From an uncultured Clostridia bacterium (GTDB lineage: Bacteria > Bacillota > Clostridia > Oscillospirales > Ruminococcaceae): a DNA stretch of 50,228 nt. Under the pieces are notes generated by a model. It was not told the origin of the DNA and did not search any database. It saw nothing but the letters and a program-made list of their open reading frames with translations. Position numbers and translations under genes: made by a program. Positions 20,689-44,486 of the stretch are shown piece after piece. Each line of letters opens with the position of its first letter. Position 1 is the first letter of the stretch. The stretch spans positions 1-50,228 of the forward strand of contig CAMZIK010000006.1 in the NCBI GenBank assembly GCA_947307175.1, read 5' to 3'.

Positions 20689-21048
20689 ATGCAGATAAAC
20701 TTTGAAAGCGAAAAGCCGATCTTCATACAGCTTGCGGATTGGCTAAGCGACAGTATAATTTCCGGAGCCATAAAAGAAGGGGAGCAGATACCGTCAACAA
20801 CAGAGATGTCGGTGCAGCTCAAAATAAACCCTGCAACAGCGCTCAAAGGCGTAAATATGCTGGTTGACAAGGGTATCATCTATAAGAAAAGGGGACTGGG
20901 TATGTTTGTATCGGACGGTGCAGTGGAAAAGCTCAGAAAAGAAAGACAGGCTGAGTTTTTCGGAGAATATATAAAGAAAATGCTTGACGAGGCTGCAAAG
21001 CTCGGACTGAGCAAGAAAGACATAATCGAGCTTATCGAAAGGGGATAA
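20689..21048 (+). CDS. GntR-family (YtrA-type) transcriptional regulator
   Basis: PIFIQLADWLSDSIISGAIKEGEQIPSTTEMSVQLKINPATALKGVNMLVDKGIIYKKRGLGMFV. Confidence 0.95.
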   Translation: MQINFESEKPIFIQLADWLSDSIISGAIKEGEQIPSTTEMSVQLKINPATALKGVNMLVDKGIIYKKRGLGMFVSDGAVEKLRKERQAEFFGEYIKKMLDEAAKLGLSKKDIIELIERG

Positions 21049-21052
21049 TAAA

Positions 21053-21898
21053 ATGAGAGGGATAGAGCTTAAAAATCTGACAAAATACTATAAAGACACA
21101 AAGGCGCTTGAAGACGTGTCGCTGACGATAGAATACGGAAAGATATACGGACTGCTCGGCAGGAACGGCGCAGGCAAATCCACAATGGTCAACCTCATAT
21201 CAAACCGCATTTTTCCGACTTCGGGAGAGATATACGTTGACGGCGAAATGTCGATAGAAAACGACACAGCGCTTCGCAAGATATTCACCATGAGCGAGCA
21301 TAACCTGCTGCCTGTTGACAAGAAGTTCAAGGACGCAGTTAAGCTGGTAAAGATGTTTTACCCTGAGCTTGACGAGGACTACGCCTTTGCTCTTGCGGAT
21401 AAGTTCGAGCTTGACGTGAAAAAGAAGCTTATGGGGCTTTCAACAGGCTATTCGAGCATAGCAAAGCTCATCATAGCGCTTGCATCAGGTGCTGACTACA
21501 TATTCTTTGACGAGCCTGTTCTCGGTCTTGATGCAAACCACAGAGACCTGTTCTACAAGGAGCTTATCGAGCGCTATGCCCAGACAGGCAGCACCTATAT
21601 CATCTCAACGCATCTTATCGACGAGTGTGCAAGCCTTATCGAGAAAGCTATCATAATAGATAAAGGAAAACTCATCGTTTCGAAAGATACCGAAAGGATA
21701 ATGTCGGATTCATATACCGTAACAGGAGCAGCCGAGCTTGTAGATAAGTACACGGCAGGAAAGACAGTGATAGGAAGCGACACTGTCGGCGGTATCAAAT
21801 CGGCATATGTAAAGGGCAAGCCAGAAAACGTTCCGCAGGGACTTGAAATATCCAAGGCAAGCCTGCAAAGCCTTTTCATTCAGATGACAAATGATTGA
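21053..21898 (+). CDS. ABC transporter ATP-binding protein
   Basis: GRNGAGKSTMVNL Walker A, LSTGYSSIAKLIIAL signature variant, YIFFDEPVLGLD Walker B. Confidence 0.96.
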   Translation: MRGIELKNLTKYYKDTKALEDVSLTIEYGKIYGLLGRNGAGKSTMVNLISNRIFPTSGEIYVDGEMSIENDTALRKIFTMSEHNLLPVDKKFKDAVKLVKMFYPELDEDYAFALADKFELDVKKKLMGLSTGYSSIAKLIIALASGADYIFFDEPVLGLDANHRDLFYKELIERYAQTGSTYIISTHLIDECASLIEKAIIIDKGKLIVSKDTERIMSDSYTVTGAAELVDKYTAGKTVIGSDTVGGIKSAYVKGKPENVPQGLEISKASLQSLFIQMTND

Positions 21899-21920
21899 GA
21901 ACAAAAGGGGATAGCATAAA

Positions 21921-22694
21921 ATGTATACAAAGAAACTGCTTCGTGCCACGTTGAACATCAAGGAGATACTGGTGATGGCGCTCATGCTTGCAGCTATTAT
22001 CGCTGTATTCACCTTTATCGAGTTTCAGGGCGCAAGGGGAGACATAGATGATATTATAGAGAAAAACAGCATAGTTACGCAGGAGGACCTTGACAAGATA
22101 AGCGTTTTATCGCCTGCGGCAGTGATAGCGGTCTTTTCGTCGCTGGCATTCGGTATGGCGTTCCTGACGCAGATGACCAATCTTTCGCTTCAGGTCAACG
22201 TCACAAGAAAGCATCTGTACAGGGCAATGCTTATTTTGCAGTCGATATGTGCTTCGATAATAACGCTCACGGTCATTCCCACCATGCTGGGAACAAACCT
22301 GCTGTTTTCAAAATTCTGCACGGGAGATTACGCAGGACTTGAGAGCAAGTTCAGAGATGCAGCGTTCAATACATGGGTATTTTCAAAGGATATGACGATC
22401 TCAAGCGGAATAGCCGAAGGGATACTTGTAATGCTGCTGGCAGTGTTTGTCTTTACGGTGATCGGAACACTGCTGGGAATGGTACTTACAAGGCTGAGAG
22501 GAGCAGCGCTCGCAGCGGTCTGCATAACAGGGTTTGCTATTGCGGTAGGGCTGCTGATAATGCTGATATTTTTACATACGAGGATCATTTCGATATCTGT
22601 GCTTGCAGGCGTGCTTATAATAATGCTCATCGCACAGCACAGGCTGATAAAAACGCAGTCGCTTGACGCAAGGACTGCAGTAAAGGTTGTTTGA
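21921..22694 (+). CDS. ABC-2-like membrane protein (permease subunit)
   Basis: About 6 hydrophobic segments, operonic with GntR/ABC. Confidence 0.7.
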   Translation: MYTKKLLRATLNIKEILVMALMLAAIIAVFTFIEFQGARGDIDDIIEKNSIVTQEDLDKISVLSPAAVIAVFSSLAFGMAFLTQMTNLSLQVNVTRKHLYRAMLILQSICASIITLTVIPTMLGTNLLFSKFCTGDYAGLESKFRDAAFNTWVFSKDMTISSGIAEGILVMLLAVFVFTVIGTLLGMVLTRLRGAALAAVCITGFAIAVGLLIMLIFLHTRIISISVLAGVLIIMLIAQHRLIKTQSLDARTAVKVV

Positions 22695-22711
22695 AGAGGA
22701 GGCGTGAGAAA

Positions 22712-23467
22712 ATGAAAAACGATCTTGTCCGTTATACTGTAAAAAAAGGAACAGTGCCAAATATGATCGTCACCGCAGTCGTTTCTGCTGTGATCGCTCT
22801 GGCTGTAATAATAATCGCAGCCATTTTCGGCGATGTTGACAAAGATGATAATACGATCCATAATATTACTACGGCATTTGTAATGTTCTGGGGATTCATA
22901 AGCTCTTTTGCGGTTTGCACCGCAAGCTTCAATTCGAGCATCTGTTTCAACCGTTCGAGAAAGTCTGCAATAAAAGCTGCATTCATATCATTGCTTATAA
23001 GTACGGTCGTATGCAGTGCGGTAAACCTCGGCATAGAAGCGGTGATAGCAGGCTTTTCAAAGACATTTGATTTCAATTATTCCTTTACGCCTCTGATAAA
23101 AGCTTTCGGCGTGCTTAAAGTGAATAATGATGTCGGCGGTCTGCTTCTTGCATACGGTTTCCATATGCTTCTCTACTACCTTGTAAGCGTAACGGGAATG
23201 CTCATCATGTGTGCCTGCATGAAGTTCGGAAAGTGGGCGTGGATAGGTTTCTGGGGAGTCTATATGCTGGCTTTCCTGCTCGGAAAATCTGTTGTCAAGG
23301 GCTTTAAAGAGTTTACTGTGAACGCTTTCGGAAGCGTCGGAATGACAGTGCTTTGCTTAGCGATAGTTCTGTCTGCGCTGTTCACCGTCCTGACGATACT
23401 TCTTATGAGAAAGACCGAGCTTAACAAAAAAACTCTCTTGTTCGGAAACGGATATAGGCGTGCTTGA
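22712..23467 (+). CDS. Membrane protein (second ABC permease-like subunit)
   Basis: About 6 hydrophobic segments; AGGAGG RBS upstream of ATG 22712; same operon. Confidence 0.7.
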   Translation: MKNDLVRYTVKKGTVPNMIVTAVVSAVIALAVIIIAAIFGDVDKDDNTIHNITTAFVMFWGFISSFAVCTASFNSSICFNRSRKSAIKAAFISLLISTVVCSAVNLGIEAVIAGFSKTFDFNYSFTPLIKAFGVLKVNNDVGGLLLAYGFHMLLYYLVSVTGMLIMCACMKFGKWAWIGFWGVYMLAFLLGKSVVKGFKEFTVNAFGSVGMTVLCLAIVLSALFTVLTILLMRKTELNKKTLLFGNGYRRA

Positions 23468-25318: not shown

Positions 25319-25626
25319 CCCATTGTTAAAAATACCTTAAATCAATAATCAGTATATCACATCTTATACAATATTTCAATAGCTTTGTGCGATTTTTATT
25401 GCAGATTGTACGATTTTTGTTTTAACCGATTTGATCTTCCGCCTTATCCATATGCTCCTTTTGCCGTTTTACACCGTAATTTTATCACGCTTTCACGCAT
25501 TTCACATACTGTACTGTTATAGTATAATTTGAGAGAGCATATACACTGATGATTTTTATGTTAAAAATGTAAAAGAAAATCATATTGTACACAATCATCT
25601 TTGTGCATTTTTGTCAAATCTGCTTA

Positions 25627-25655
25627 TTGCCAAATCCACACTTTTATTGTATAAT
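25627..25655 (+). promoter_or_regulatory. Strong promoter upstream of the surface operon
   Basis: TTGCCA-N17-TATAAT, giving an 80-90 nt leader before ATG 25744. Confidence 0.7.
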
Positions 25656-25743
25656 ATAAGAGGGAAACTATGGTCTTTAGGGGGATACTGCACCCTTTTG
25701 ACGAAAAAGTCTCAAAATTTAACCAAAAAGAGAGGTGAGTGCG

Positions 25744-26865
25744 ATGAGCGAGAGAACGGTGAACGACAACAACAAATTGTGGGAGGCAGCTGAAAGAGCA
25801 GCAGAACAAGCTGTGCTTGATGCCAAAGCCGAAAGCACAGAAGAACGCCGCAAGCAGAAAAAGCGTGTGCTGAAGCTGAGCCTGCTGATGATATTCATCG
25901 CACTTATCATCGTGTTCGCATCTATCGCATGGTTCGCCATGAATAAAGCCGTAACAGCTGATACAATGGCGATCGAAGCGGCGGAGTCACCTTTCGAGAT
26001 AGCTGTAAAAGGCGACTCAGTCAGAATAGATGATGAGTTTAAATCAGCCGACAGCACATATGAGTACGGAAACGAACAAACCTACAGCAATGTGGATTAC
26101 CGTGAGACCGGCGGAATTGTGCAGAAGATAAAGATAAGATATAACCCGGGCGAAAATGATCCTACCGAGTTCGGTCCGGACAGCTCGGGACAGATAGACT
26201 TTTATGTCGTTCCAAAGCAGGACGGTACCCTTACAGTACGTATCGACCTTGATACCATAGGCTTCAGAGAGTTCGGCGAAGGAAACAACAAGGCCATAAA
26301 GCGCATCTCAGAGCTGACATCAGCCGATGTTCCCGATGCAGCTACACTTGCTTCATATCAGGAAGCTGAGAATTACCTCAAAGGACATATAATGTTCTTT
26401 GAAAATAAGGGTAATGCAGGCACCGCCGAATTGAATCAGTATTATTACAAAGACCCTATAACTTCCGGTTATTTGACCAAAACATTTGAGAATGCAAAAA
26501 AGAATGAACCCAAGACAGTGACAATATACTGGATGTGGACGAATACACTCGGACAGATAGCACTGAAGAACACTGCAAATCTGGTCAATGTCGAAAGGAA
26601 CGGTCTGCCGATCGTTGCAGACGTATCAGACTCCGCATCGGCAGAAGTACTCAGTGCATCGGACAAAGGCAAAGTCATACAGTATCTCAAGGACAATAAG
26701 ACTAAGATATTCAAGGACGTAACAGTAACAGATACACAGATAGATAATGCAAAAACAGAAGCGAATTTCAATTTGCTCAGCACAGGATATAACAATGCCG
26801 ATTTTGCTATCGGATCCTGTATAAGCTATTTCATGATCGACATAGCAGTCAGCAAAGCAGGCTGA
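25744..26865 (+). CDS. Membrane-anchored extracytoplasmic protein, TasA/SipW-substrate-like N-terminus
   Basis: Cytoplasmic charged N-terminus, single TM (VLKLSLLMIFIALIIVFASIAWFAMN), then beta-rich region; RBS AGAGGTGAG. Confidence 0.75.
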   Translation: MSERTVNDNNKLWEAAERAAEQAVLDAKAESTEERRKQKKRVLKLSLLMIFIALIIVFASIAWFAMNKAVTADTMAIEAAESPFEIAVKGDSVRIDDEFKSADSTYEYGNEQTYSNVDYRETGGIVQKIKIRYNPGENDPTEFGPDSSGQIDFYVVPKQDGTLTVRIDLDTIGFREFGEGNNKAIKRISELTSADVPDAATLASYQEAENYLKGHIMFFENKGNAGTAELNQYYYKDPITSGYLTKTFENAKKNEPKTVTIYWMWTNTLGQIALKNTANLVNVERNGLPIVADVSDSASAEVLSASDKGKVIQYLKDNKTKIFKDVTVTDTQIDNAKTEANFNLLSTGYNNADFAIGSCISYFMIDIAVSKAG

Positions 26866-26889
26866 AACTGATTAAGGAGCGTGGCAGAT

Positions 26890-27750
26890 ATGAAAAGAAT
26901 ATTCAGTAAATTTGATATGCTGCCAAAGAAAAATAAAATGGCACTGGTTTTAGCAGCTGTCATGACGTTTTCGCTTATTATAACCATTCCTGCATATGCC
27001 TGGTTCTATGAACAGCGAAAAGCTGCCGAAATGTATAAAGTCGAGTTCCCGAACGCCCTTTACCTCAATGCAGCGCACAGAGAAGACAGAATGTATTTCA
27101 ATATGAATGCGATAAGCAAGTACAAAATGGATCCTGTCACAGGAGGTCTCTATCACGACCAGGACGGAAAACTTGTGGCAGTGACCAGTCAGCAGTATGT
27201 ATTCTCTGTTTCGGGCAAGAACACTACAAAATATACCCTGCAGCTTGCGCATACCAATAACAACCAGTTCGAGTATACCATTTATCCCGCAACGGAATAT
27301 GCAGATAAAGATTCTGTCCCGGCAGGTACGTCAGAGGACAGGGTGGTAGAATATAAACTGAACGCAAACAGCCGTAACGAGAATGACCTCGGTTCTATCA
27401 ATAATGATACATACAACGCCGACGATGATACTACCGTAAAGTGCTATGTCCGTTCTGCAAGTCCTGTCAGCACATCTATAAGCCAGGGCTACCAGAACAA
27501 TACTTCGACCACACCGATGAAAGCAAGCAAAACAGGCAAGTTCTATAACGAGAATTACGGTTCAAAGACGAATGTTGATGATGACGACGTCGCTTCATAC
27601 TGGCGGTCAGATGATATTACCGTAGTATCAGATTCAAATAAAAAATTCTGCCATTATTATGTGCTGGAAGTAACATGGAATAACAGACCGACAAGCGGTA
27701 TCGAAAGCAAAGAGACCGATATGGTCTATATAACAGCAGACAGAAAGTAA
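26890..27750 (+). CDS. Membrane-anchored extracytoplasmic protein, related in layout to the previous gene
   Basis: MALVLAAVMTFSLIITIPAYAWFYEQRKAAEMYKVEFPNALYLNA; AAGGAG RBS. Confidence 0.75.
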   Translation: MKRIFSKFDMLPKKNKMALVLAAVMTFSLIITIPAYAWFYEQRKAAEMYKVEFPNALYLNAAHREDRMYFNMNAISKYKMDPVTGGLYHDQDGKLVAVTSQQYVFSVSGKNTTKYTLQLAHTNNNQFEYTIYPATEYADKDSVPAGTSEDRVVEYKLNANSRNENDLGSINNDTYNADDDTTVKCYVRSASPVSTSISQGYQNNTSTTPMKASKTGKFYNENYGSKTNVDDDDVASYWRSDDITVVSDSNKKFCHYYVLEVTWNNRPTSGIESKETDMVYITADRK

Positions 27751-27797
27751 AACCATTATCCCAAAAACAAAAACTAAAATGAAAGGAGCTGCTGGAT

Positions 27798-28895
27798 ATG
27801 AAAAAGAAAATATTTAAGTTCATAAAGAAGCAGTGGCTCCTTGTGTGGACACTTATCGTTTCGGCTGCTATGTTTGCAATGATCGCATCAGCAGAATATC
27901 CCGGAACAAATAACTATATGAAGAGAGTCGTTGTTTCTGACGATTCAACAGATATGATGTTCTCTTCCAACCTCCTGACATTTATAGAGAATGATAAGAT
28001 CGCTTATCAGCCGTATTATGTAAGGCAGCTTACTGATGATGATCTTGCAACTACCTATGACGTTGATGTATATGTCTGGAACTATGATATAAACGGCACA
28101 GGCGATTATTATAAGAAGAATATCAGCTATCAGCTGAATATAAAGGTCGTTGACAAGAACGGAGATACCGTGACGAGCCTTGGAAGCGGCAAAACTATAC
28201 AGATCGTTAAGAACGACAGCACTGTATTGAAAAGCTTCAACAGCTCCAGCAGTTCTTATGATTATACCCATAGCCCTAACGAGACTCTCGCTACGGGCGC
28301 AAGGTCACAAAATAAATATACTATCAAGTTCTCAAAGAACTGGGATCTTGAAAATGACAGCAATACCCGTGTACAGATAACTGCAACGCCTACATCGGAG
28401 TTCACAGATCTGAAAACGCTTGCTGCAGCAATAGGTCTTAAAGAGGAAAGAGCTGCCGATGTTGCAGGCTGGAAGTATTATATCAATGAGCAAAGACTCA
28501 ACTCCGCAGCTGCTCCGTCAGCTTATGATGCGTATAACCTCGTCCTTACAGGTACCGGAAGTTCAACGATAGTTATCGAATGGGATCCCACAAAGGTCGC
28601 AATAAATAAGGACTTATATGAACAGGGCGGTGCCTACTCCTTCTATTCCGGTGAGGTAACTTATTATGCCAGCGGCGCCGCAGGCGGAAGTTCGATCCCC
28701 GGCTGGGAAAAGCTCGTTATTGAAGCTGATTCATATTCACAATTAAAAGAATACAGAAACCGATACGATCTTCAGTTGTATAAGTTCAACGGCGAATTGA
28801 GCAGCGCTTGGGATTTCGTCGGCGCTTCACAGTCAGGCAACGTTTGTATAGTGATAAACGGTGCCGAAGATGCATTGACTGAATCAAACGATTGA
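27798..28895 (+). CDS. Membrane-anchored/secreted protein, third member of the set
   Basis: QWLLVWTLIVSAAMFAMIASAEYPGTNNYMKRVVVSDDSTDMMFSSNLLTF; AAAGGAG RBS. Confidence 0.75.
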   Translation: MKKKIFKFIKKQWLLVWTLIVSAAMFAMIASAEYPGTNNYMKRVVVSDDSTDMMFSSNLLTFIENDKIAYQPYYVRQLTDDDLATTYDVDVYVWNYDINGTGDYYKKNISYQLNIKVVDKNGDTVTSLGSGKTIQIVKNDSTVLKSFNSSSSSYDYTHSPNETLATGARSQNKYTIKFSKNWDLENDSNTRVQITATPTSEFTDLKTLAAAIGLKEERAADVAGWKYYINEQRLNSAAAPSAYDAYNLVLTGTGSSTIVIEWDPTKVAINKDLYEQGGAYSFYSGEVTYYASGAAGGSSIPGWEKLVIEADSYSQLKEYRNRYDLQLYKFNGELSSAWDFVGASQSGNVCIVINGAEDALTESND

Positions 28896-28963
28896 TACGT
28901 CTTATTTGGAAATGGAAAGGGAGATAAGGCATTCTTGGCTCAGACTTTAGGAGAATGATGCGT

Positions 28964-31900
28964 ATGAAAAAATACATCAGTAATTTTTTAAGAAAAAAGA
29001 CAGGCAAAAGGGTAGTCAGTGCGCTGACCGCTTTTGTCATGGTCTTCTGCGCTCTGCCGGCAGCTGAGATAGGTGAAAAATTAGGCAATCTGGACTTTAC
29101 CAGCATTTCGGTAAATGCTGCAGATGATGATACACCGCCCAGTGGTTATGCGTTTTTGCACAATCCTGCGGATAGCAATAAAATATCGCTGTCAATAAAA
29201 GATTTCTATGATTATGCTGATAGTTACAAAAAATATCCCGGTTATCATCAGAACGATGAGATAACAATAAAAACATCAAGCGGAACTACGCAGTATTATC
29301 AAAGAGAATTTGCAGGACTCGGAACAAGTACAAAACCTTTTGCAGGTAAGATCAACGTTGAAGCCAATAACCCTCTGGTTTTTAATCTTGATGCACCTCT
29401 GTTTAAATATGTTACGGATACCGCAGAACTGAACGGCACAACAGGAATAAGTATTGCCCGTTTTTACGGTCATGACATTCCGAGCGGTCAAACCATAAAA
29501 GATACTACTCCGCTTTTAGCTGAGAACGTTGTTAAGAAAAACGGAACAAAAGCAACTTGGACCGTTAACATAGTAAAACCATCAGCTACTGATGACGGTG
29601 AAAGCGGAACTCTGGAACCGTTTGGCGGCATGATTGGAACAATGGGCGCTGATGCTGAGCTTACGCTAAATGTTACAATGGATCAGCAAACAAATGATAC
29701 TGGCGCAATAGCATTGAAATCAAAGTCCAATCTTGGATTGGCTTGTGGATTGATCAAACAAAATGCGACCCTTAATTTCTCTATAGGAGCATCATCCGGC
29801 GGAACTATCAGGAACATCAGCAGCATAGAAACTTCTTCCGGTAATGTTGGTGGTCTTGTAGGTGAAATGGAATCCGGTTCAACTTTCAATTATACCGGAA
29901 GGAACATCCAGAATAATAGTACCAGTATTTCAACAGGAAATGAAGGATATTCCGGAGGCGTTGTAGGAAAGATAAACAAGGCTACAGTCGTTTTGCCGAG
30001 CAGTCCTGCTTATAGCATAGCACAGCTAATTTCAGGAAAAAAAGGAACAGGAACGATTTATGGCTATTATCAGCCTAAGTCAAATGAAACGAGTATTGAT
30101 CTTACCAAGTATAGTATAGATGATACTAAAACTGAAGTTAACGGTACCGGTCACATAGGCGGTTTATTTGGTGTGCTTGAATGTGATCATGATTTTGCTT
30201 TTACCACAGCTGCAACAATTAAATCCAAGCACAATGCCGGTGAGGCTTCGTCATATGGCGGACTTATCGGTAAGTATTCCAATACGCTGCTTTCAAATAC
30301 TCTATCTATTGGAGGCTTAACAACAAGTACAAATCTGAGTGGCGGAAAGGCGACATACTACGGCGGTGCCATAGGAATAATAGATGATACTAATGCGAGC
30401 TATGTAAAGTTTGACGGCTTTACGGTCAACAAGGCTTACAATGCAGATAGCTTGACATTTGGTGGACTCGTCGGAAAAGCGACAAAAGCATTTGTTGATG
30501 CTAATAATGTTACAATAAATGTCAATGGATCGTTTTCAGGTGGCGGTTTGGTCGGCGATCTCGGAAACGGTGTATTACGTTTGACTGGAACAACAAACCT
30601 TTCCGGAGCTAAATCATCAGAAACAACAAGCAATGGACACCTTTATGGTCAGATAGTTGGAAACAGAGACAGCGCTCTTGTTTTTGCAGAGACAGGTTGG
30701 GTCTTGAGAAGAAGCGCTGCAGTAGAGGCAGATGACATAGGTGCTTGGGGCGAAGTCCTTAGATTTGATTCAAAAGGCACTGATACAGAGACTGACGATG
30801 AAACGACCTATGATCTTACATATGAGCAGTTTGATGACAATACGGTTTTGACAGTCAATGAAACGACTCATGCGATCTCGATTTCTGATTCACCTTATAC
30901 CATAAGCGATACTGCCGATTTTGCTGCGACTGCATTAAATATACAGATAAGCAGCGGCAGTATAGTAACTTCAGGTTCAACATCGGATACCATTTCTCTG
31001 GAAGATGATATAGTTTTATCGGGTACAGGATTAACTGGCTTTACAAGGGATAATAATAAAGATAATAGCTTAACTGAATCTCATTGTGTGTTCAGCGGAA
31101 GCTTTAATGCATCAGGTCATACCATAACATTGGCGATCGGTGAACCTTATGGCTATAGAGGAGAAACGAATCTTTCAACAGCAGCCACAAGGTCCGATGG
31201 CGACGGCAGGATCTATAATCATCGCTATAATGGTTTGTTTGGTATATTGCAAGGCTCTGATGATACATCATTTGGTTCAATAGATGACAGCACGATTACC
31301 ATTAATGGAAAGTGTAGTGTTTCACCTAAAGCAAACAGCGTTTATGTTGGTTCTGTAGCTGGAGTGGCTACGAACAAAGTAAATATCTACTCTGTAAACG
31401 TTTCAACGACTTTTGATTATGGCGGTTCAAAAGATTTATATCTTGGCAGACTTGTTGGCGAGATCAATTCGCCTGTTGCCATAGAAGACGAAGAAACTCC
31501 GGAAGTAGAAATAGCTAATTGCGAGTTCTCGGGTGTTGTTTCGGGAACGAATAATAGCAGCGAAACTTGTATAGGCGGTGTTGCAGGCAAAATATACCAC
31601 ACTGCAAATGAACAGCAATACTGGAACCTTCAGAATCTGACTGTTAGCGGAACTGTTGAAAACAAAGCAACAAAAACACAACAGATAATTGGCGGATTAA
31701 TTGCCAAAATAGAGGGCTATTCTGCTTCCAGTGGATTCAACAGCAGAAAGCTGGTTCTCAATAATATTACTACCTCAGATCTTGAAATAAAAGGCGCAGC
31801 GGCTACCTCAATGGGTGGACTGCTTGGTTACTGCTGGCTGAACACTGATGTTGTTATCGGTGTAGTTGACGAAGATACTGGTGAAGTTGTCGAAGAAACC

Positions 31901-34900
31901 AGTGTAAATATTGATAGTGGCTCAAAAGTGACTGCATCTGGTGCAGTTAAGGATATGGCAGGTCTGGTGTACAATGCAACCGGTAAATGGTCAGTAAATG
32001 ATCTTAATATCAATGCTATTGAGATCGCAGCCAATACGCCAAGATCTTTCGGCATGATAGTCAACAAAGGCTGGTATTCCGCAAATACAAATTATAAAAC
32101 AGATGATAGTTCATCGGCAATATATCTTTTGCTGACTTCAACTGACTGCTATGAGATCTCATCTGCAACGATCGGTACGCTTTCGAGTGCTGCTGTATTT
32201 GATGAGCTGGTAGCGTATAGCGCTTATTACAGAGATGATGGCAATAATAGGCTTGCAACCGATGCCAGTGGTGATGAGTATATCCTCAAAAACGGTAACG
32301 GTGTAGTGTCGATACACATTGCTGCTGAACCTGAAGAAGAGGGTGATTCGCCTACTCTCGGTCTTGTTATGGAAGAAGGAAGTGAAAGTAATAGTTATAA
32401 GGCACAGACTTCACTTGGTGCAAAACCAAATCCCTGGACAAGATATTATTATGACCTTGATGTTATTACCAATCCTGAATATGGTTATTCTGGACAAAAT
32501 GCAGGAAAACTAATGCTTTGGGGACTGAACAAATATGCGCATCGAAGCATAAAGAATAATTTTTCAGATCCATTTACAAACAATAATATTAATGTAAATA
32601 ATGCGGATTATGACATGACAGGTTATAGCTGGTATCCTGTTGACGTTGATTTTTCTGTTGCTGTAAAAGGTAATTTCAAATTTGCAAACAAGGAATTTGA
32701 ATTGAGTGAAGCTGAAAATGCTGGTGATCACGATTCACAGAAATCATCTATTTCAACAGAGTATAATAACGTAGATTACAAAACGCAGCATTATCTTATG
32801 CACTGTGGTTTGTTCCGCAATGTTTACAGTGGAAAAACAGTAACGATAAATAGCAATATGAGATTAAGAGGAAATGTTGCGAAAACTGATAAGTATTGCG
32901 GAGTGCTTATTTGCGGTACAGTTGATGGCAGCTCGGATACCAATAAGGCTACGATCACCATTAATAATCTTGAATTACAGGGTGCATATATACATAATAT
33001 CGAAAATCTGACAGGGGCTTCTGTAACTTATGCGCCGCTGCTTATCAATAAGATCACAAAGTATACGAATCTGACAGTGAAAAATGTTAAGACAAGTACA
33101 ACCACTAATTATAGATATATAGATGATTCATGCATTCCGTATATAAATAGAGACGATGACAATTTCCCTAAAGCAGGAAGCAGTCTTATTGGTGAAGTAG
33201 GTTCATCAACTGCAAAGGGATTGAATCTTGTTTTTGAAACGATACAGCTTGACGGCAGAACGGCTGCTCTTGCAACAGGAAATAATACGCTTAATACAAA
33301 ATATAGAACAAACCGTACTATATTTACCAAAGCGACCCTGCTTGATAAATTTGAATTTGAATCAGGTTCAAAGGGCAAGTATACATACACCTGGACTGAT
33401 GACTGGGGTTCTAGTTCTCAGAAGAAAGTCACCTATGGTAAAGAAGTAGGTTATAAGACTGAGGGTGAGTTCCCGAATCAGGAGCGTAAATACTTTGAAG
33501 GCTCGACCGCAGATGCGGAAGAATATACAAACCCGGGAGTAAATAACGATACCGATGGAGAAGCTATTTCTACCATACTGAAGAATAGTTTCCTTCCGTA
33601 TGTAGCTACACCATATGATCCTAATGGCGACACTCATCAGCTCGAAGTAAACCACAGGACATCAAATGCAGAGGGCTGCGGCACATACAATGACCCATAT
33701 ATAATAAAGAAGGCTTCTGAGCTTCAGAATATTGCTCTGATCATTAATGGCGATGCATCAAACGGAACGAAGATCACTCTGCCAAATGAAACTGAAATGT
33801 CTACATTCTGGTGTGAAGATAAAACAGGAAAAAGTCATCATAAGGTTTTTGAATTTAACGGTACGAATTTCATTAATGGAGATACTACATTATCTTCCAC
33901 ACAAGTCAGAACATATCTGGCAAGGGCATACTATCAGATTGGCGATAATTTCACAATTGAAAGTACTATTAATTTTGGCGGTATAAGTAATTTTACATCA
34001 ATAGATAGCACAAACAACTTTGCAGTATTTAGAGGAGTTATTGACGGCGACGGATTTACTATAACAAACACGAGTTCATCTCCTCTGATCGTTAATAGTT
34101 ATGGCTGTGTTATTAAAGATCTTACAGTAAGTGTACAGAATTCAGCAGACATTTCATTAACTCAGAATAGTATAGCAGCTTTTCCAACATGTACGAGTTA
34201 TGGCGGACTTATAGCTAATATACTTGGCGGAGATAATATGCTTGACGGAGTTTCTGTTGATTACTCTCTAATGACGAAACTCATTAAAATAAATACTAGT
34301 AACAGTACGTATAATCAGCTTATACCTGTTGGTGGATATATTGGTGTTGTTGTTGATGGAGCAGTAATTTTTAAGAATATGTCCAGCAGCACACAGGGCC
34401 TTTCTACAATTCCGTCTGGTAAATTAAAGTATAATAATTCTAACTTAGCTCTTAACAATCAACAATACCTTTATGTCAATCCGATCATCGGCAGAGTAAT
34501 AAATGGTTATGCGGTGACCGAAAGCACAAGTTATAAAACATCAGAAAACGATGTTACTATGCATAATGGCAAGAAGAACTATTCTATCGCTGATATAACC
34601 AAGGACAACAATATCGCAATGCTTTCTACCGGAGCATATACGTCGATCGGAACATCATCATACAGTACTGACGTTAGTATCCCTAACGCACAGGCTTTGT
34701 TCGTTATGTCTCTGCTGACACAGAGCAGCACCACTGTCGGAACACCTGGTACAGGTGCACTTACACTTGGTACGAGCGGAAGCTATGACGGCTCGCTCAA
34801 AGTAAGGCGTCGAGCAGCTTACAGTGAAGTCGGAACAGATGCAGCAAATGACGATAAGCCCGCCGATTATAATGCAGCAATAGCAGATACTGCAACATCA

Positions 34901-37900
34901 GGTGTGCCGTATATAGTTGCAAATTATACAGGCGTTATTGAAAACACAACAAATTACGGTGTGCTTGCGCTGACAAATAATAATACTGTCTGCAATTTTA
35001 ATCTTGGCGGAACGAGCACGGAATGGATATTGCCTGATGGCTTCAGAGGTATTGGATGTATCGGATTTAAGAGGACTGATCTTACCAACAGAACTATCAG
35101 CCTGCATAAGTTCAATGGAAAGAATAATAATGGCGAAGGCGATGAAGTTACCATTACAATGAATATGTCGCTTCAGCATTATGAGGCAGTCTGGGATAAT
35201 TATTTGCCTGTTAACAACAGTCAGGGCGGTTTTGGTCTGTTTAATACATTACATCACAATAGATCTGATCAGGGAACCGTAGAAGATGAATATAAGATCA
35301 GTAATCTTAATATCACAGGTACAATTGATTACTTTGTTTTCTATCATGGTGCTAATACTGGTGTGATGGCATATAATAAGACAAACATTCCAAATGCTGC
35401 TTATTTGAATTGCGGCGGTATTGCTGGATATGCCGGTTTTGGCGGAAATGATAGTATTACTGTAGAAGATATAGGTGTTTCTGGTCTTACTGTTAATGGC
35501 TTTGAAACAGCAGGCGGTTTCTTTGGTAATCTCCAGCTTTCTAATAAAAATGCATCATATCATCAGGTATCTATATCAGATATTGATGCACAGGAGGCAT
35601 TTACTGTTCATAGTAAACGTTATGCAGGAGGAATAATCGGATACTTTAAACAAGGGAATCTGAGCATCAGTGATGTAAAAATATTATTGCCAACGGTGCT
35701 TAATGAATACGTCGGAAGTAGTATAACTGATTTTGATAATGGTGTTGGTGGATTAATAGGCTATTGTCAAAATGTTAACGGAAACAGTCCTATAGTATTA
35801 ACCGATATCCAGCTTGGTCAATTAAGCAGTAATGTTACATCACGAATAGGATATATTGATGGATACCCTTGCACATCTGCTACCACGGCAACTGTTGTTG
35901 CTGGTGGTATAATCGGAAGAAATAATACGTATAAAGGAAGTAATGATTACTCCTTAAAAATAGAAAATTGTAACGTTTATAATATCAGTATTTATGGTCA
36001 CAGAGTCGGTGGACTGATCGGAAGTGATGCCGCAGATAATAATACAAATACTCAGTCGAAAATACTTATTTATAACTCTAATGTTAAAAGTAATAATGAA
36101 TCTGAATTATATGGTTTATTTCCATCTAATTCTAATTCCAATAATTTAAAGCACAGAGCGTGTGGAGGCTTGATGGGTGGTTCAAAAGCTGCAAATGGAG
36201 TAGTGATAGATACTTGTTTAGTTGAAGGTTATACTTTACAAGGATATCAGGATACAGCTGGTATATGTGCCAATGCTGAAGGAGGAGCATTTGAAGTACA
36301 TAATTTTAGGATTAAGAATGTAAATATGCGTTCTGATTATTCAGCCTGTCTGTTTGGTTGGTTGCCTACGGCAGTTAAGGGCTATAATATTCTTTGTGAT
36401 AACATCCAATTCCAGGACAGGACAGGTGGCACAACGGAAAACACATCTGGTCAGCATGGTTATCTTATTTCTAAAAATAATGGCAATAATATTAAAATAG
36501 TTGGTCTTTCTTGTAAGAATACTACTCCTAAACCTGGTTATTTTATACCATCAAAATTTATAGGAGTCAATGATTATTCAGGCGGAAATAATTATATTAT
36601 TTTTGCAGATTATAATTATGCTGCTTCTGATAGCAATAAAACGTTTGCTAATGTAAATACTGGAGCAACTAATGTTACTGATTATGCAGGCGCTGTGGTT
36701 TCTGATAATAACCCATATGTAACATCAAGCCCTAAAATGTTTATCGGAAACAATCAGTTCCTGACTGGTGATGCCGTAAGCTCCACAGATTACAATAATT
36801 CCGCATTGAAGCAAATAATACTTGATAAGCAAGATCCTCAAAAGAGCTTAAACGGTGCTCAATCCTATGCGAAAGCTCCTGCTGTTGATACAAACTTGCT
36901 TAAAGATGTCACTGATAATTTTACGACATCAAAGGCTGAGTTCGGAACTGCTTTCTCTTATGATTTCCCGATGCTTAAAGTAGAAGATACAAATAAAACT
37001 AAGATAACAAATTATATCAACTACTATATCCAGAATCTTACTAACTCGCCATCTTCATTCACTTTCCATCAGGATAAAAAGACAGCTGATAACAAATCGT
37101 ATATTTATAAAGTAACTATGCACAAATGTACTTATTCTGATGGCGCGTTTACAGTCGGAGCAGACGGAACAGGATCATTGGAACGTACGAACACTGGATT
37201 CAAGATGGATCCGAATAAAATCGATAACAATGATCCGAACACCCCACAGTTTACACTTATGGATGTTAAGTTCCTTGATCCTTCAGACAATAGTAAAGTT
37301 GCATATCACCTTTATGTTCCTATCTATGTTAAAAAACTTATCCAGTATAAGTTCAGCGCAAAGCTGGCAAGTGGAACAAATTATTATGAAGGTGCATACA
37401 CAAACATTTCCGCTGGAAACACCTTGTTTGATAACCTCGGCAGCCCTGTTACAATGAGGCTTGAGTATACCTATGACCGAGAGACTCAGGATTGGGCTGA
37501 TGCGATAAACGGCGGAGAAAATGTGCTTACCGGATCAAACTTTTACAAGGAATTGCTGCTGTCAATGAATGAGAACGGCTGGGCTCCTAATTCGAGAATG
37601 GTGCTGGTCGATGCAAATAACAAAGATAAGCACTATTATATGGATGCAGCTATTACACAGGCGGATACAAATGGTGATTATCATATCGCATTTGAATCCT
37701 TTACCACCACAGGTACTGCACAAGGCACAGCATATTCTCCTGCACCGTTTAATGATTTGCTGACGATGTCTATAAGCACCGAAGGAGACTGTACATTGGT
37801 GACCACAAACAGTGCATCAGATGCTACCGTAAAAGTCGGTGATCAGTATTATAAACCTGCACCGGAGGATTATACAGGTACAAAGTACAAAGTTGTTGTT

Positions 37901-39358
37901 TCAGCTGTTCAGCCTGAAGTGTACTATCTTAGCTTCTTTACAAATAAGACCCAGGGCAGAGATAATATCTATCACTATGAGATAAAATCAGTTGAGCGAT
38001 TTGAGCAGCGTGGCACATCCGATACAGGATGGAAACCTAACAAGATCTTCAGAAACAATAATGATCCTGTCCATCTTATCATCGGAAATCTTTACACGAA
38101 CAACGATTTTGCAATATCAGTTACTCCGCAGATCGCTTCAACTAAAATGAGTAAGAACAATTCTGTGCATACTGTTACAATGACAGCCCACATAGGTCTG
38201 ACAGAAACAGCAAAAACAGCGCTGATAGCTAATAATCTGGAGCAGAATGAAAACTCTACCATCTATCAGACCTTCCTTATGAACTATAAAACAACGGAGC
38301 TTGTCGATAATCTTCCGGTAACAAGGATCGGAGTGGACAAATCAGCTATTTCATCAATAACGGTGACAAGCTATAAGATCTATCACGGAGCAACTGCTTC
38401 AGGTACCGGTACAACTGTTCCGTATTCTGACCCTGAAGATTTGATGACAACCAACTACATCGAGCTTAGAAACAATCAGAACCTCAATGAGTATCTGAGA
38501 GATTCAACAGAAGGTCATGACAATATGGCTACTATCCAGGTAACATTTGCAGTTGAGTATTCGGAAAAGAATCTTCCAAGACAGTTCCCTGAGAGGGGAG
38601 ATGAAATCGATACAAGAGTCGGCGCACAGGTCTTTGGCTATTCAAACATTTCTTCAACCGTTGAGAGCGGTGCTTACAGCGCAACATCTGAACCTGCCGA
38701 AGACGTTGACAATAATAATGACCCGGTAAGGTATTATACAAAGAGCTCTGCATCTGCAAGTCTGACATATAATGCCGAAAAGACAATGACCGATTCTAAC
38801 GGACAGTATAGTTCTCTTGGCATCAATCCGTTTGACGAAGGAACGAAGGATACCAATAAGGGCCATATCGACTCGACCGCAACTTACAGCTTCCTTGACA
38901 TTCAGAATCCGACCGATTACATCGAGTTCAATATTACTCTGACAAGTAAAAAGGACAACAATTACGGTACACCGCTTGACATCAGACAGTATTTCCAGAA
39001 CCTGACGATCAAAGCCGACAAGACTTCGTCCACACCTTTGTATACTCAGGGAACGGATACATCAACAACGAATGTCGTAGCATCTATGAGTTCAGACGGG
39101 ACCAGAATAACACTCAGAGCTAAAAAGGATTCTCTGAAAAAGGTAGCTGATAAGGTTTATTCGATTTACGTTTCGTTCGATGTCCTCACAGGAGACGACA
39201 ACGGTTTCGGAGATACTAAAGCATACTCCAATTACAAGGTAAACATCACAGCAGATATGTACAGCAGTCTCACTGATACGAGCACGCCTGATCAACAGCA
39301 TCACGCATCGGATCACATCATCTATACCAACTCCAAACTGCAGTACAAAATATTCTGA
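28964..39358 (+). CDS. Giant (about 3460 aa) secreted protein with GLUG-like beta-solenoid repeats
   Basis: Signal-peptide-like N-terminus (KRVVSALTAFVMVFCALPAAE...VNAADDD). Many GG(L/V/A)(V/I)G(K/E/D/Y) repeats (GGLVGE, GGVVGK, GGLIGK, GGAIGI, GGLVGK, GGLVGD, GGVAGK, GGLLGY, GGLIGY...) and an EGCGTYNDPYIIKKASELQNIA boundary motif. ATG 28964 better spaced from AGGAGA than ATG 28955. Confidence 0.85.
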   Translation: MKKYISNFLRKKTGKRVVSALTAFVMVFCALPAAEIGEKLGNLDFTSISVNAADDDTPPSGYAFLHNPADSNKISLSIKDFYDYADSYKKYPGYHQNDEITIKTSSGTTQYYQREFAGLGTSTKPFAGKINVEANNPLVFNLDAPLFKYVTDTAELNGTTGISIARFYGHDIPSGQTIKDTTPLLAENVVKKNGTKATWTVNIVKPSATDDGESGTLEPFGGMIGTMGADAELTLNVTMDQQTNDTGAIALKSKSNLGLACGLIKQNATLNFSIGASSGGTIRNISSIETSSGNVGGLVGEMESGSTFNYTGRNIQNNSTSISTGNEGYSGGVVGKINKATVVLPSSPAYSIAQLISGKKGTGTIYGYYQPKSNETSIDLTKYSIDDTKTEVNGTGHIGGLFGVLECDHDFAFTTAATIKSKHNAGEASSYGGLIGKYSNTLLSNTLSIGGLTTSTNLSGGKATYYGGAIGIIDDTNASYVKFDGFTVNKAYNADSLTFGGLVGKATKAFVDANNVTINVNGSFSGGGLVGDLGNGVLRLTGTTNLSGAKSSETTSNGHLYGQIVGNRDSALVFAETGWVLRRSAAVEADDIGAWGEVLRFDSKGTDTETDDETTYDLTYEQFDDNTVLTVNETTHAISISDSPYTISDTADFAATALNIQISSGSIVTSGSTSDTISLEDDIVLSGTGLTGFTRDNNKDNSLTESHCVFSGSFNASGHTITLAIGEPYGYRGETNLSTAATRSDGDGRIYNHRYNGLFGILQGSDDTSFGSIDDSTITINGKCSVSPKANSVYVGSVAGVATNKVNIYSVNVSTTFDYGGSKDLYLGRLVGEINSPVAIEDEETPEVEIANCEFSGVVSGTNNSSETCIGGVAGKIYHTANEQQYWNLQNLTVSGTVENKATKTQQIIGGLIAKIEGYSASSGFNSRKLVLNNITTSDLEIKGAAATSMGGLLGYCWLNTDVVIGVVDEDTGEVVEETSVNIDSGSKVTASGAVKDMAGLVYNATGKWSVNDLNINAIEIAANTPRSFGMIVNKGWYSANTNYKTDDSSSAIYLLLTSTDCYEISSATIGTLSSAAVFDELVAYSAYYRDDGNNRLATDASGDEYILKNGNGVVSIHIAAEPEEEGDSPTLGLVMEEGSESNSYKAQTSLGAKPNPWTRYYYDLDVITNPEYGYSGQNAGKLMLWGLNKYAHRSIKNNFSDPFTNNNINVNNADYDMTGYSWYPVDVDFSVAVKGNFKFANKEFELSEAENAGDHDSQKSSISTEYNNVDYKTQHYLMHCGLFRNVYSGKTVTINSNMRLRGNVAKTDKYCGVLICGTVDGSSDTNKATITINNLELQGAYIHNIENLTGASVTYAPLLINKITKYTNLTVKNVKTSTTTNYRYIDDSCIPYINRDDDNFPKAGSSLIGEVGSSTAKGLNLVFETIQLDGRTAALATGNNTLNTKYRTNRTIFTKATLLDKFEFESGSKGKYTYTWTDDWGSSSQKKVTYGKEVGYKTEGEFPNQERKYFEGSTADAEEYTNPGVNNDTDGEAISTILKNSFLPYVATPYDPNGDTHQLEVNHRTSNAEGCGTYNDPYIIKKASELQNIALIINGDASNGTKITLPNETEMSTFWCEDKTGKSHHKVFEFNGTNFINGDTTLSSTQVRTYLARAYYQIGDNFTIESTINFGGISNFTSIDSTNNFAVFRGVIDGDGFTITNTSSSPLIVNSYGCVIKDLTVSVQNSADISLTQNSIAAFPTCTSYGGLIANILGGDNMLDGVSVDYSLMTKLIKINTSNSTYNQLIPVGGYIGVVVDGAVIFKNMSSSTQGLSTIPSGKLKYNNSNLALNNQQYLYVNPIIGRVINGYAVTESTSYKTSENDVTMHNGKKNYSIADITKDNNIAMLSTGAYTSIGTSSYSTDVSIPNAQALFVMSLLTQSSTTVGTPGTGALTLGTSGSYDGSLKVRRRAAYSEVGTDAANDDKPADYNAAIADTATSGVPYIVANYTGVIENTTNYGVLALTNNNTVCNFNLGGTSTEWILPDGFRGIGCIGFKRTDLTNRTISLHKFNGKNNNGEGDEVTITMNMSLQHYEAVWDNYLPVNNSQGGFGLFNTLHHNRSDQGTVEDEYKISNLNITGTIDYFVFYHGANTGVMAYNKTNIPNAAYLNCGGIAGYAGFGGNDSITVEDIGVSGLTVNGFETAGGFFGNLQLSNKNASYHQVSISDIDAQEAFTVHSKRYAGGIIGYFKQGNLSISDVKILLPTVLNEYVGSSITDFDNGVGGLIGYCQNVNGNSPIVLTDIQLGQLSSNVTSRIGYIDGYPCTSATTATVVAGGIIGRNNTYKGSNDYSLKIENCNVYNISIYGHRVGGLIGSDAADNNTNTQSKILIYNSNVKSNNESELYGLFPSNSNSNNLKHRACGGLMGGSKAANGVVIDTCLVEGYTLQGYQDTAGICANAEGGAFEVHNFRIKNVNMRSDYSACLFGWLPTAVKGYNILCDNIQFQDRTGGTTENTSGQHGYLISKNNGNNIKIVGLSCKNTTPKPGYFIPSKFIGVNDYSGGNNYIIFADYNYAASDSNKTFANVNTGATNVTDYAGAVVSDNNPYVTSSPKMFIGNNQFLTGDAVSSTDYNNSALKQIILDKQDPQKSLNGAQSYAKAPAVDTNLLKDVTDNFTTSKAEFGTAFSYDFPMLKVEDTNKTKITNYINYYIQNLTNSPSSFTFHQDKKTADNKSYIYKVTMHKCTYSDGAFTVGADGTGSLERTNTGFKMDPNKIDNNDPNTPQFTLMDVKFLDPSDNSKVAYHLYVPIYVKKLIQYKFSAKLASGTNYYEGAYTNISAGNTLFDNLGSPVTMRLEYTYDRETQDWADAINGGENVLTGSNFYKELLLSMNENGWAPNSRMVLVDANNKDKHYYMDAAITQADTNGDYHIAFESFTTTGTAQGTAYSPAPFNDLLTMSISTEGDCTLVTTNSASDATVKVGDQYYKPAPEDYTGTKYKVVVSAVQPEVYYLSFFTNKTQGRDNIYHYEIKSVERFEQRGTSDTGWKPNKIFRNNNDPVHLIIGNLYTNNDFAISVTPQIASTKMSKNNSVHTVTMTAHIGLTETAKTALIANNLEQNENSTIYQTFLMNYKTTELVDNLPVTRIGVDKSAISSITVTSYKIYHGATASGTGTTVPYSDPEDLMTTNYIELRNNQNLNEYLRDSTEGHDNMATIQVTFAVEYSEKNLPRQFPERGDEIDTRVGAQVFGYSNISSTVESGAYSATSEPAEDVDNNNDPVRYYTKSSASASLTYNAEKTMTDSNGQYSSLGINPFDEGTKDTNKGHIDSTATYSFLDIQNPTDYIEFNITLTSKKDNNYGTPLDIRQYFQNLTIKADKTSSTPLYTQGTDTSTTNVVASMSSDGTRITLRAKKDSLKKVADKVYSIYVSFDVLTGDDNGFGDTKAYSNYKVNITADMYSSLTDTSTPDQQHHASDHIIYTNSKLQYKIF

Positions 39359-39370
39359 CCCAACCATTTA

Positions 39371-39398
39371 CAGAGCCGGTTTTCCGGCTCTGTTTTTT
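39371..39398 (+). terminator. Strong terminator after the giant gene
   Basis: CAGAGCCGG tttt CCGGCTCTG TTTTTT. Confidence 0.92.
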
Positions 39399-39585: not shown

Positions 39586-42500
39586 ATGAAAAAAAGACTA
39601 TTATCGGCGCTGCTCGCAGTCTGCCTGATGTTCGGCTCGGCAGCAGCTCTGCCCGAAGGTTGTTTTGATTATGATTCGCAGATAACCGCAAGTGCGGATA
39701 CAAGCGGCGACTATACCTATACCGTGCTTTCTGATGACAGCGCAAAAATAACAAGATGCAGCGGAACAACACGCACATCTGCATCTGTGACAATACCGAG
39801 TGACCTTGGCGGACATAAGGTCACCACGCTTTCTGCTAATACTGCAGGCATTTTTACAATGCTTGGAGGCATGAAGAATACCTACATCAAAACGCTGACA
39901 CTGCCGACTACCGTTAAAACTATCGAGTCAAGTGCTTTAGCATCAATGCATGCTCTTACGACCGTAAATCTGAACGAAGGTCTTACAACTATTGCATCAA
40001 GTGCTTTTCTCAACGCCATATCACTCCAAAGCATAACCCTGCCTGCAAGTCTTACAAGCCTTTCAAACAACGCTTTTGAAGGCTGCACCGCACTTGCAAG
40101 CATCAACGTCAAGGACGGGAACAGTACATACTGTTCAATAGACGGAGTAGTCTATAACAAGGCAAAGACCCAGCTGGTGCTTTGTCCTCCCGGCGCAACG
40201 ACTATATCTATTCCAAGTACCATAACTTCTATCCCCGATAAAATGTTTTCAGGTGCTTCTAACCTTAAAAGCGTAACGCTCCCCGATAACCTTACTTCTA
40301 TCGGCAAGCAGGCTTTCTTCGGCTGCACATCTTTGAAAACCATTACCATTCCTAAAAATGTGACCTCTATCGGAGAGAAGGCTCTTGGTTATTATAAAGA
40401 CCCGAACTCTATTGACGTGCTTAAAGTCAGCGGCTTTACGATCAAAGGCTATAAAGGCTCTGCAGCAGAGACCTATGCAAAAGCTAACGGCTTCACCTTT
40501 GAAGCCATAGGCGAGAGCTGCTCACATACATACGGCAGCCCGACATGGACCTGGACACAGTCCTCAAGCACTTCCTATACCGCAAGCGCAACGTTCAAAT
40601 GCTCAAAATGCGGCGAAGTGTCTGCTGCTCAGAAAGCAAGCATAAGCACCGTCCAGACCAGCGCAACCTGCACCACTGCGGAAAAGTATGTCTATACCGC
40701 AAAGGTGACCTTCAACAGCCAGACTTATTCCGATACCAAGACCGTGACCAAAGGTTCAGCCCTCGGTCATGACTGGACAGATTATAAGACCACGACCGAA
40801 CCTACCTGTACCAAAGACGGCGTAAGCACAAGGAGCTGTAAAAGAACAGGCTGCAGCACCACGGAAACAAAATCGATAACCAAGCTCGGTCATGATTACA
40901 GCATAAAGGTCGTAGCTCCGACCTGTAAAGACCAGGGCTATACGCTTCATTCCTGCACACGCTGCACCGACAGCTATAAGGATACTTATACCGATAAAAC
41001 CAACGATCATAAGTGGAGCGACTGGAAAACCACCAAAGAGCCTACCGAAACGACCGAAGGCACAAAGGAAAGAAGCTGCTCTGTCTGCGGAAAGAAAGAG
41101 ACCGATACTATCCCCAAGAAGTCTCATACCCATAACTATACCACCAAGACCGTAGCTCCGACCTGTACCGCACAGGGCTATGTCCTACATACCTGCACAG
41201 GCTGCGGAGATACCTACAAGACTAACTATAAGGATCCTCTCGGACATTCATGGACAGACTGGCAGACCGTAGAAGCTGCCACCTGTACAGCCGACGGAAA
41301 AAAGACAAGGAAATGCCAGAGATCAGGCTGCAATGAAACTGAAACACAGATAATCACAAAGCTCGGACATAAATATTCTGCTTCCGTAGTAGCTCCTACC
41401 TGTACAACTGCGGGCTATACCCTGCATAAATGTACACGCTGCACCGACAGCTATAAGGACGAACACAAGGACGCTCTCGGTCATGACTATGTTGCAACCG
41501 TCGTAAAACCGACCTGTACCGCAAAGGGCTATACCCTGCATAAGTGTTCACGCTGCTCGGATAACTATAAGGATACTTATACAGATAAGGTCGATCATAA
41601 GTGGAGCGATTGGAAAGTCACCAAAAAGCCTACCGAAACGACCGAAGGCTCAAAGGAGAGAAGCTGCTCCGTCTGCGGAAAGAAAGAGACCGAGACTATC
41701 GCTAAAACGACCCATAAGCATACCTATACCACCAAGACCGTAGCACCGACTTGTACCGCAAAGGGCTACACTCTGCATACCTGCTCAGGCTGCGGTGATA
41801 CCTACGAGGATAACTATAAAGATCCTCTGGGACATTCTTTCGGCGATTGGAAAACGACCACCGAACCGACCTGTACAGCCGACGGAACAAAGACATGTAC
41901 CTGTAAGAGATCAGGCTGCAATGCAAAGAAAACAAAATCTGTTTCAAAGCTCGGTCACAGCTATACCACCAAGGTCGTAAAACCGACCTGTACCGCAAAG
42001 GGCTATACCCTTTATACCTGCATAAGATGCGGAGAAAGCTATAAGGAAAACTATACCGCTGCGACAGATCATACCTGGGGCGCATGGAAGACCACAAAGG
42101 CAGCTACCGAAAAGACCGAAGGCACAAAGGAAAGAAGCTGCACCGTCTGCGGAAAGAAACAGACCGCAACTATCCCTAAAAAGACTCATACCCATAGTTA
42201 TACCACCAAGACCGTAAAGCCGACCTGTGAAGCAAAGGGATATACGCTCCACGTCTGCAAGGGCTGCGGCGATACCTATGTAGATAACTATAAGTCAGCT
42301 CTCGGACATACCTGGGGCAAATGGAAAACCACTAAGGAGGCTACCGAGACCTCAACAGGTCAGAAGGAAAGATACTGCTCCGTCTGCAATAAGAAAGAAA
42401 CAGCAGTAATACCAATAAAGAAGCATACCCATACCTATACCACCAAGACCGTTGCTCCGACCTGCACCGCAAAGGGCTATAAACTTCATACCTGCAAGTG

Positions 42501-43937: not shown

Positions 43938-44486
43938 ATGGCAGATGTAAAAACAAAATATTCAGGAACACAAACAGAGAAAAACCTTCAGGCAGCCTTC
44001 GCAGGCGAGTCTCAGGCAAGAAACAAGTATACATACTTTGCTTCAAAAGCAAAGAAGGAAGGCTATGAGCAGATCGCAGCTCTTTTCCTTAAAACAGCTG
44101 ACAATGAGAAAGAACACGCAAAAATGTGGTTCAAGGAGCTTAGCGGCATAGGCTCGACCGCCGAGAACCTTGCAGCAGCTGCCGATGGCGAAAACTACGA
44201 GTGGACAGATATGTATGAGGATTTCGCAAAGACAGCCGAAGCAGAGGGCTTCCCTGAGCTTGCAGAAAAGTTCAGAGGCGTAGCTGCTATCGAAAAGCAC
44301 CACGAGGAAAGATACCGTGCGCTGCTAAAAAATGTCGAGATGCAGGAAGTCTTCAAAAAGAGCGAGGTCAAAGTTTGGGAGTGCCGCAACTGCGGTCATA
44401 TCGTAGTCGGAACAAATGCACCTGATGTCTGCCCCGTATGCGCCCACCCACAGTCCTATTTCGAGGTAAACGCAGAGAATTATTGA
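43938..44486 (+). CDS. rbr: Rubrerythrin
   Basis: [44 protein letters not shown] diiron domain; [28 protein letters not shown] rubredoxin-like domain; AAGGAGG RBS. Confidence 0.98.

Follow-up and report, generated by a model that had tools for sequence, protein, structure and literature searches.

A conserved four-gene surface-protein unit of Ruminococcus-like gut bacteria and the CoCoPALM-like cluster that tracks it

In the TasA systems of Bacillus, namely tapA-sipW-tasA in B. subtilis and sipW-tasA, CalY and CapP in B. cereus (PMC10151520, PMC13082335), proteins with an N-terminal signal anchor and a beta-sandwich exterior are combined with a SipW-family peptidase, independently of sortase. 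Clostridial SipW-dependent surface polymers, likewise formed without sortase, are represented by sipW-bsaABCRSD of Clostridium perfringens, which the available text of PMC7395162 presents as a small operon with a pilin-like protein (BsaA), its own two-component system and no giant protein. Giant GLUG/beta-solenoid adhesins are known separately. CoCoPALM, which combines an NxD McrB-like GTPase carrying an N-terminal transmembrane (TM) segment with a McrC-like DUF2357 protein and signal peptidases, was named in eLife RP94800 with no further analysis in the text available.

Here we describe a four-gene unit in a 50,228-nucleotide stretch of DNA (hereafter the window) whose host is a Ruminococcus-like gut bacterium. 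The three small proteins of the unit share signal anchors, beta-sandwich exteriors, the link to a SipW-family peptidase and sortase independence with the Bacillus systems, but have no sequence-family or fold match to them (folds for ORF1 and ORF3, among the matches listed); the unit also differs in having three obligate, different subunits plus a giant, and in having GTPase and DUF2357 partners, with its peptidases outside the operon. With the C. perfringens operon, compared by description only, the unit has the SipW link and sortase independence in common; the small operon size, BsaA, the two-component system and the lack of a giant set that operon apart. The giant resembles solenoid adhesins in being secreted, in its size (2.8–3.9 kaa among relatives) and in its GGLxG-type motifs, arranged in two blocks, but differs from them in its fixed set of three partner genes, its C-terminal motif and the lack of a Pfam match. 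The partner cluster has the CoCoPALM components; the four-gene unit is unmentioned in the available main text of eLife RP94800, and a search of the literature on SipW and TasA in Ruminococcus found nothing on it. Genomes, contigs and loci are denoted by G, C and L numbers.

Layout and conservation of the four-gene unit

The preliminary description had proposed a promoter followed by four co-directional genes and a terminator, and the ORFs, their spacing (gaps of about 15–60 bp), the promoter-like site and the terminator were all recovered (Table 1). The terminator is the strongest on the + strand of the region, and a terminator scan of the region found none comparable between the four genes, in agreement with the earlier statement that no strong terminator lies inside the unit. 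Promoter-like sites were not enriched across the region (47 versus 43 ± 6 in shuffles) and a second site with an 11/12 match lies at 25501–25528; the assigned promoter, supported by its position and unproven, is for these reasons only plausible. ORF1 starts at the ATG at 25744, with GAGAGGTGAG upstream and an alternative GTG at 25735. In the giant, AGGAG precedes the ATG at 28955 by just 2 nt, which favours the ATG at 28958 or 28964 as its start. Searches of Pfam and NCBIfam gave no match for ORF1–4, and Rfam gave none for a riboswitch (c-di-GMP or other) before ORF1.

Table 1. Positions of the unit, its expression signals and its flanks in the window
Feature	Coordinates	Strand	Description
Left flank: GntR regulator, ABC ATPase, two permeases	20689..23467	+	Orthologous site of 7 species; GntR and ATPase 84–93% identical, permeases 32–56%
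Conserved "expression site"	25554..26003	+	Upstream ~190 bp plus first ~85 ORF1 codons (cytosolic tail, TM, AWF motif); DNA identity to sister species
Promoter-like TTGCCA-N17-TATAAT	25627..25655	+	11/12 match
ORF1	25744..26865	+	373 aa; cytosolic tail, one TM (47–65) ending AWF, mixed beta-sandwich ectodomain; profile family A1, 25 members
ORF2	26890..27750	+	286 aa (289 if GTG at 26881); short tail, TM (17–35) ending AYAWF, ectodomain; profile family A2, 24 members, W38 invariant
ORF3	27798..28895	+	365 aa; short tail, TM (14–32) ending ASAEY, all-beta sandwich ectodomain; profile family A3, 25 members
ORF4 (giant)	28955..39358	+	~3467 aa, secreted; signal peptide, two GGLxG blocks (224–958, 1750–2408), C-terminal YTNSK motif
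Intrinsic terminator	39370..39393	+	10 bp stem, 7 G-C, T-run
Right flank: rubrerythrin-like gene	43938..44486	+	95–97% identical in G125, G128, G123 and in the unit-free G132 site

Each of the three small proteins has exactly one hydrophobic segment near its N-terminus, as had been proposed, and the aromatic motif at the end of this segment (A-W-F or A-x-Y) is kept within each family. The cytosolic tail of ORF1, of ~45 residues, is conserved. The beta-rich exterior claimed earlier holds for ORF3, for which AlphaFold2 gave all-beta Ig-like sandwiches (pLDDT 82), whereas ORF1 was modelled as a mixed beta-sandwich with helices (pLDDT 85). Among the best 50 PDB matches listed for each model, ORF1 had none at E ≤ 0.001 and ORF3 only generic Ig-like ones (TM-score of the query ≤ 0.25), and neither model had a convincing solved structural relative among them. 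Full-length homology among ORF1, ORF2 and ORF3 was rejected, as hhalign aligned the TM-end motif only.

The giant carries a signal peptide that looks cleavable, and it contains 20 GGLxG motifs, compared with a mean of 0.9 and a maximum of 5 in 500 shuffles, and its relatives contain 17–22; the solenoid character suggested in the preliminary description was thus borne out as far as these repeats go. The window's giant and two of its relatives had no match in Pfam, the GLUG repeat included. The motif [YW]TN[AS][KR] was found in the last ~20 residues of 23 of the 25 giants that are complete at the 3' end, and the other two (G135 and one G141 copy) are frame-split, the downstream piece of each ending in YTNAK. 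Retention of this motif at the extreme C-terminus while the remaining sequence of the giant diverges suggests that it may serve in docking. LPXTG, already reported as not visible along with sortase, was absent from ORF1–3 and from the last 60 residues of every giant checked, and sortase anchoring of the unit was rejected.

The order ORF1-ORF2-ORF3-giant recurs in >20 loci from several genera and two orders. It was found on one strand within the genus, in other genera of the family (G114, G071, G112), in other families of the order (G149, where ORF2 was not called, G188, G189 and G415) and in a member of another order (G681); the sole rearranged locus, in G135, has a frame-split giant placed before ORF2–3. 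Of 100 relatives sampled, 24 contained relatives of ORF1, and these almost all belong to the same genus; profile searches recovered ORF3 in 19/29 genomes of the genus, in 6/295 of the order sample and, in the class sample, in G681. The distances of ORF1–3 co-vary (Mantel r 0.72–0.85, p ≤ 0.0006). The preliminary description had made its proposal depend on homologues of the four genes co-occurring in other genomes, which they do, in the same order, and the existence of a genuine conserved unit, previously undescribed, is supported. N-terminal-only matches to ORF1 in G129 were considered as leader cassettes and rejected, being contig ends. One genome, G141, has four units altogether, among them a near-identical duplicated pair (L049, L073) in which the giant of one copy is frame-split.

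The CoCoPALM-like partner cluster

The small proteins had been called TasA/SipW-like, which the searches did not uphold. Neither PF12389 (TasA/camelysin) nor TIGR04088 (the SipW-cognate signal peptide) had a match in the genome at E ≤ 10, with B. subtilis controls positive for both; PF12389 had none among ORF1–4, and no TasA-type fold appeared among the best 50 PDB matches listed for the ORF1 and ORF3 models. Membership in TasA was rejected on these two families, the profiles and the fold matches listed, and the resemblance to TasA/SipW-type proteins is limited to a TM segment ending in A-W-F or A-x-Y. G146 (L079), which belongs to the genus but lacks the unit, has a classical SipW gene followed by two proteins with GGTFAYLTD and GGTMAFLTD signals, so that the classical SipW system is separate from the unit.

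The earlier statement that no SipW peptidase is visible applies to the window alone: elsewhere in the genome, contigs C50 and C180 encode two peptidases of the SipW type. Both exceed the TIGR02228 cut-off, match the SipW model NF046067 at E = 3e-35 and 5e-24 (below its 190-bit cut-off) and look intact, with S, H and D motifs present. The anchoring route, previously left unexplained, is partly resolved by these peptidases, which lie in a cluster that tracks the unit. This cluster encodes, in order, an AWF protein, an EAL-domain protein, a TM protein, SipW1, a McrB-like GTPase, a DUF2357 protein, SipW2 and a small TM protein. The GTPase has a structural match to McrB (E = 0.005), the Walker A sequence GISGTGKT, a GTANNDD motif and a TM near its N-terminus, and belongs to the membrane-bound McrB-like proteins of the NxD branch. 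The DUF2357 protein matches PF09823 over cut-off (E = 6e-7), and its alignment consensus contains a long E/R/K-rich, helical-looking region. In L070, L071, L072, L074, L078 and L080 the DUF2357 protein and SipW2 form one ORF of ~985–1007 aa, so that the partner of the GTPase and the peptidase are linked. With SipW1 and SipW2 as its associated signal peptidases, the cluster matches the CoCoPALM class as outlined in eLife RP94800, and differs from that outline in including two SipW-type peptidases and an apparently degenerate EAL protein. The latter (L021:16666-17451) is possibly non-catalytic, since the sequences seen have apparently degenerate forms of its canonical motifs, EAL and DDFG.

In the window's genome, the unit and the cluster lie on different contigs. 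The first ~140 bp of C180 (L022:1-140, G000:C180) have 65% GC and an RseP-like end, followed by the GTPase, and the overlap with the C50 end has several mismatches; this end of C180 is probably chimeric, so that continuity of the cluster in this genome is only inferred.

Across genomes, the cluster is present almost genus-wide, and the DUF2357 protein occurred in 29/295 genomes of the order, including 6/6 with ORF3 (hypergeometric 5.5e-7, or 3.6e-5 by genus, both values being optimistic given relatedness). The unit-bearing G114, G071, G112 and G681 carry the cluster too, G122, G133 and G139 are without both, and G130 (70% complete), with ORF1–3 and no cluster detected, is the one exception. 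Unit and cluster were found near each other on one contig in 11 genomes (G114, G112, G071, G134, G140, G135, G124, G145, G121, G141 and G681), and in two of these, G112 and G135, they are directly adjacent and point the same way. Some genomes have the cluster but not the unit, namely G126, G143 and G129 and 23/29 of the cluster-bearing genomes of the order; the cluster can therefore have the unit as one client at most. The ORF distances correlate weakly with those of the cluster's GTPase (r 0.18–0.33), and hhalign of ORF1 against the cluster's AWF protein gave 96.7% over the TM-end AWF stretch only. As a separate observation, a sortase gene, matched by Pfam in G071, and genes for pilin-like proteins were seen at L016:4993-7056 (G071) and L082 (G129), either separating the unit from the SipW cluster or flanking them.

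Proposed assembly of the unit's products

The unit appears to be a new, exchangeable system for display at the cell surface, and it tracks a barely described export and pilus-assembly cluster. We consider it an even call whether the small proteins form an anchored platform that is matured by the CoCoPALM SipW peptidases and docks the giant by its C-terminal strand. The gene order and its conservation, the association with the cluster, the C-terminal motif and the hypervariability are observed; the processing, the assembly of the platform, the docking and a role in adhesion are what we infer. The four genes would act as one exchangeable surface-display cassette, the small proteins entering the membrane through a SipW-type signal anchor and being cut or matured by the SipW-family peptidases of the cluster, a step that its membrane GTPase and DUF2357 partner could possibly coordinate. 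Once mature, their beta-sandwich domains would build a platform or short filament at the membrane. The giant, exported separately through its ordinary signal peptide, would be held by the platform via the conserved terminal strand, its long solenoid reaching outward as an adhesin or recognition surface.

Given the lack of any match to the model for SipW-cognate signal peptides, the peptidase acting on ORF1–3 may be other than SipW. It is conceivable, if rather unlikely, that these proteins are never cleaved and act as membrane-anchored chaperones or tethers for the giant during export, while the SipW cluster serves a different filament built from its own AWF protein. The missing TIGR04088 match would fit, as would the conserved tail of ORF1, which is odd for a discarded signal peptide, and the cluster has candidate substrates of its own in the AWF and TM proteins; the strong co-occurrence and the adjacency of unit and cluster argue against it, as does the AWF at the TM end, common to ORF1 and the cluster's AWF protein in that stretch. 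We regard as very improbable a strict TasA/CalY-type biofilm fibre system with the giant as an accessory. SipW-family peptidases in the genome, single N-terminal TMs and beta-rich exteriors all speak for one, and sipW-bsaABCRSD is, in the available text of PMC7395162, a diverged TasA-like system in Clostridia, but with working controls neither PF12389 nor TIGR04088 matched anywhere in the genome, no TasA match emerged by profile or among the fold matches listed, and the classical arrangement in the unit-free G146 marks it as a separate thing. An unlikely reading of the platform-and-giant cassette itself, that it is mainly a recognition or identity factor (a receptor for mating, kin or phage) diversified by exchange instead of a gut-surface adhesin, draws on the chromosomal site described below: there, unit proteins mostly 25–43% identical stand beside flanks at 84–97%, and an ICE-like element breaks up one resident copy while apparently carrying another. 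However, adhesin loci under immune or substrate selection yield the same pattern, and the interruption was seen at one locus only.

A hypervariable site and a mosaic unit

The unit occupies a hypervariable locus at which it is frequently swapped. The orthologous site holds a unit in G136, G128, G123 and G125 (split in G125), whose proteins are mostly 25–43% identical to those of the window, compared with 84–93% for GntR and the ATPase and 96–97% for rubrerythrin (unseen in G136, where the contig ends). G132 has no unit at this site and carries it on a different contig. Hypervariable surface loci usually signal selection by hosts, phages or neighbours.

Within the window the unit is a mosaic, its promoter and anchor being local and the rest foreign. 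The DNA of the expression site is 76–77% identical over 425–447 bp to L008, L009, L010, L037 and L035 of sister species, and residues 1–80 of ORF1, with the ~190 bp upstream, are sister-species-like (69–89%). For residues 81–373 of ORF1 and for ORF2–4, the nearest counterparts are those of G114, a member of another genus (56, 58, 66 and 65%), while the GTPase of the window's genome is 94% identical to that of the sisters and 79% to that of G114.

In G125, ORF1 is split at the F-A-S-I codons, just before AWF (L036:8223-8564 and L051:1950-2882). The left half lies mid-contig on C5 and adjoins the GntR-ABC flank, the right half lies on C27 and adjoins the LRR/CWB2 and rubrerythrin flank, and the halves, joined computationally, give one open ORF1. 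Beside the left junction are serine recombinase genes, one a confirmed large serine recombinase, followed by conjugation-like genes and, within the element, by an intact second unit (C5 17052-31300; L035:2053-16301). The arrangement suggests an integrative conjugative element that has inserted into the resident cassette and has an intact unit of its own on board, as judged from one genome whose contigs do not close.

More broadly, and tentatively, CoCoPALM could be a GTPase-driven, SipW-coupled machine for Gram-positive surface assembly, with the cassette as one exchangeable class of cargo, swapped at a fixed chromosomal site and also through conjugative elements, which would inactivate the resident copy at its anchor codons and supply one themselves. 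CoCoPALM, only named in the text so far available, would gain a specific candidate for its cargo and a function open to testing, and this cargo would link McrBC-type GTPases to surface assembly instead of restriction. The place of the unit in a hypervariable locus, which is new in this follow-up, reveals a highly variable locus for giant surface proteins in bacteria common in gut and rumen, where cassettes may be replaced through mobile elements. Directly after the unit, the window encodes BspA-type LRR and three CWB2 domains for cell-wall binding (39586-43821), which are found in the same place in G125 and are absent in G128 and G123.
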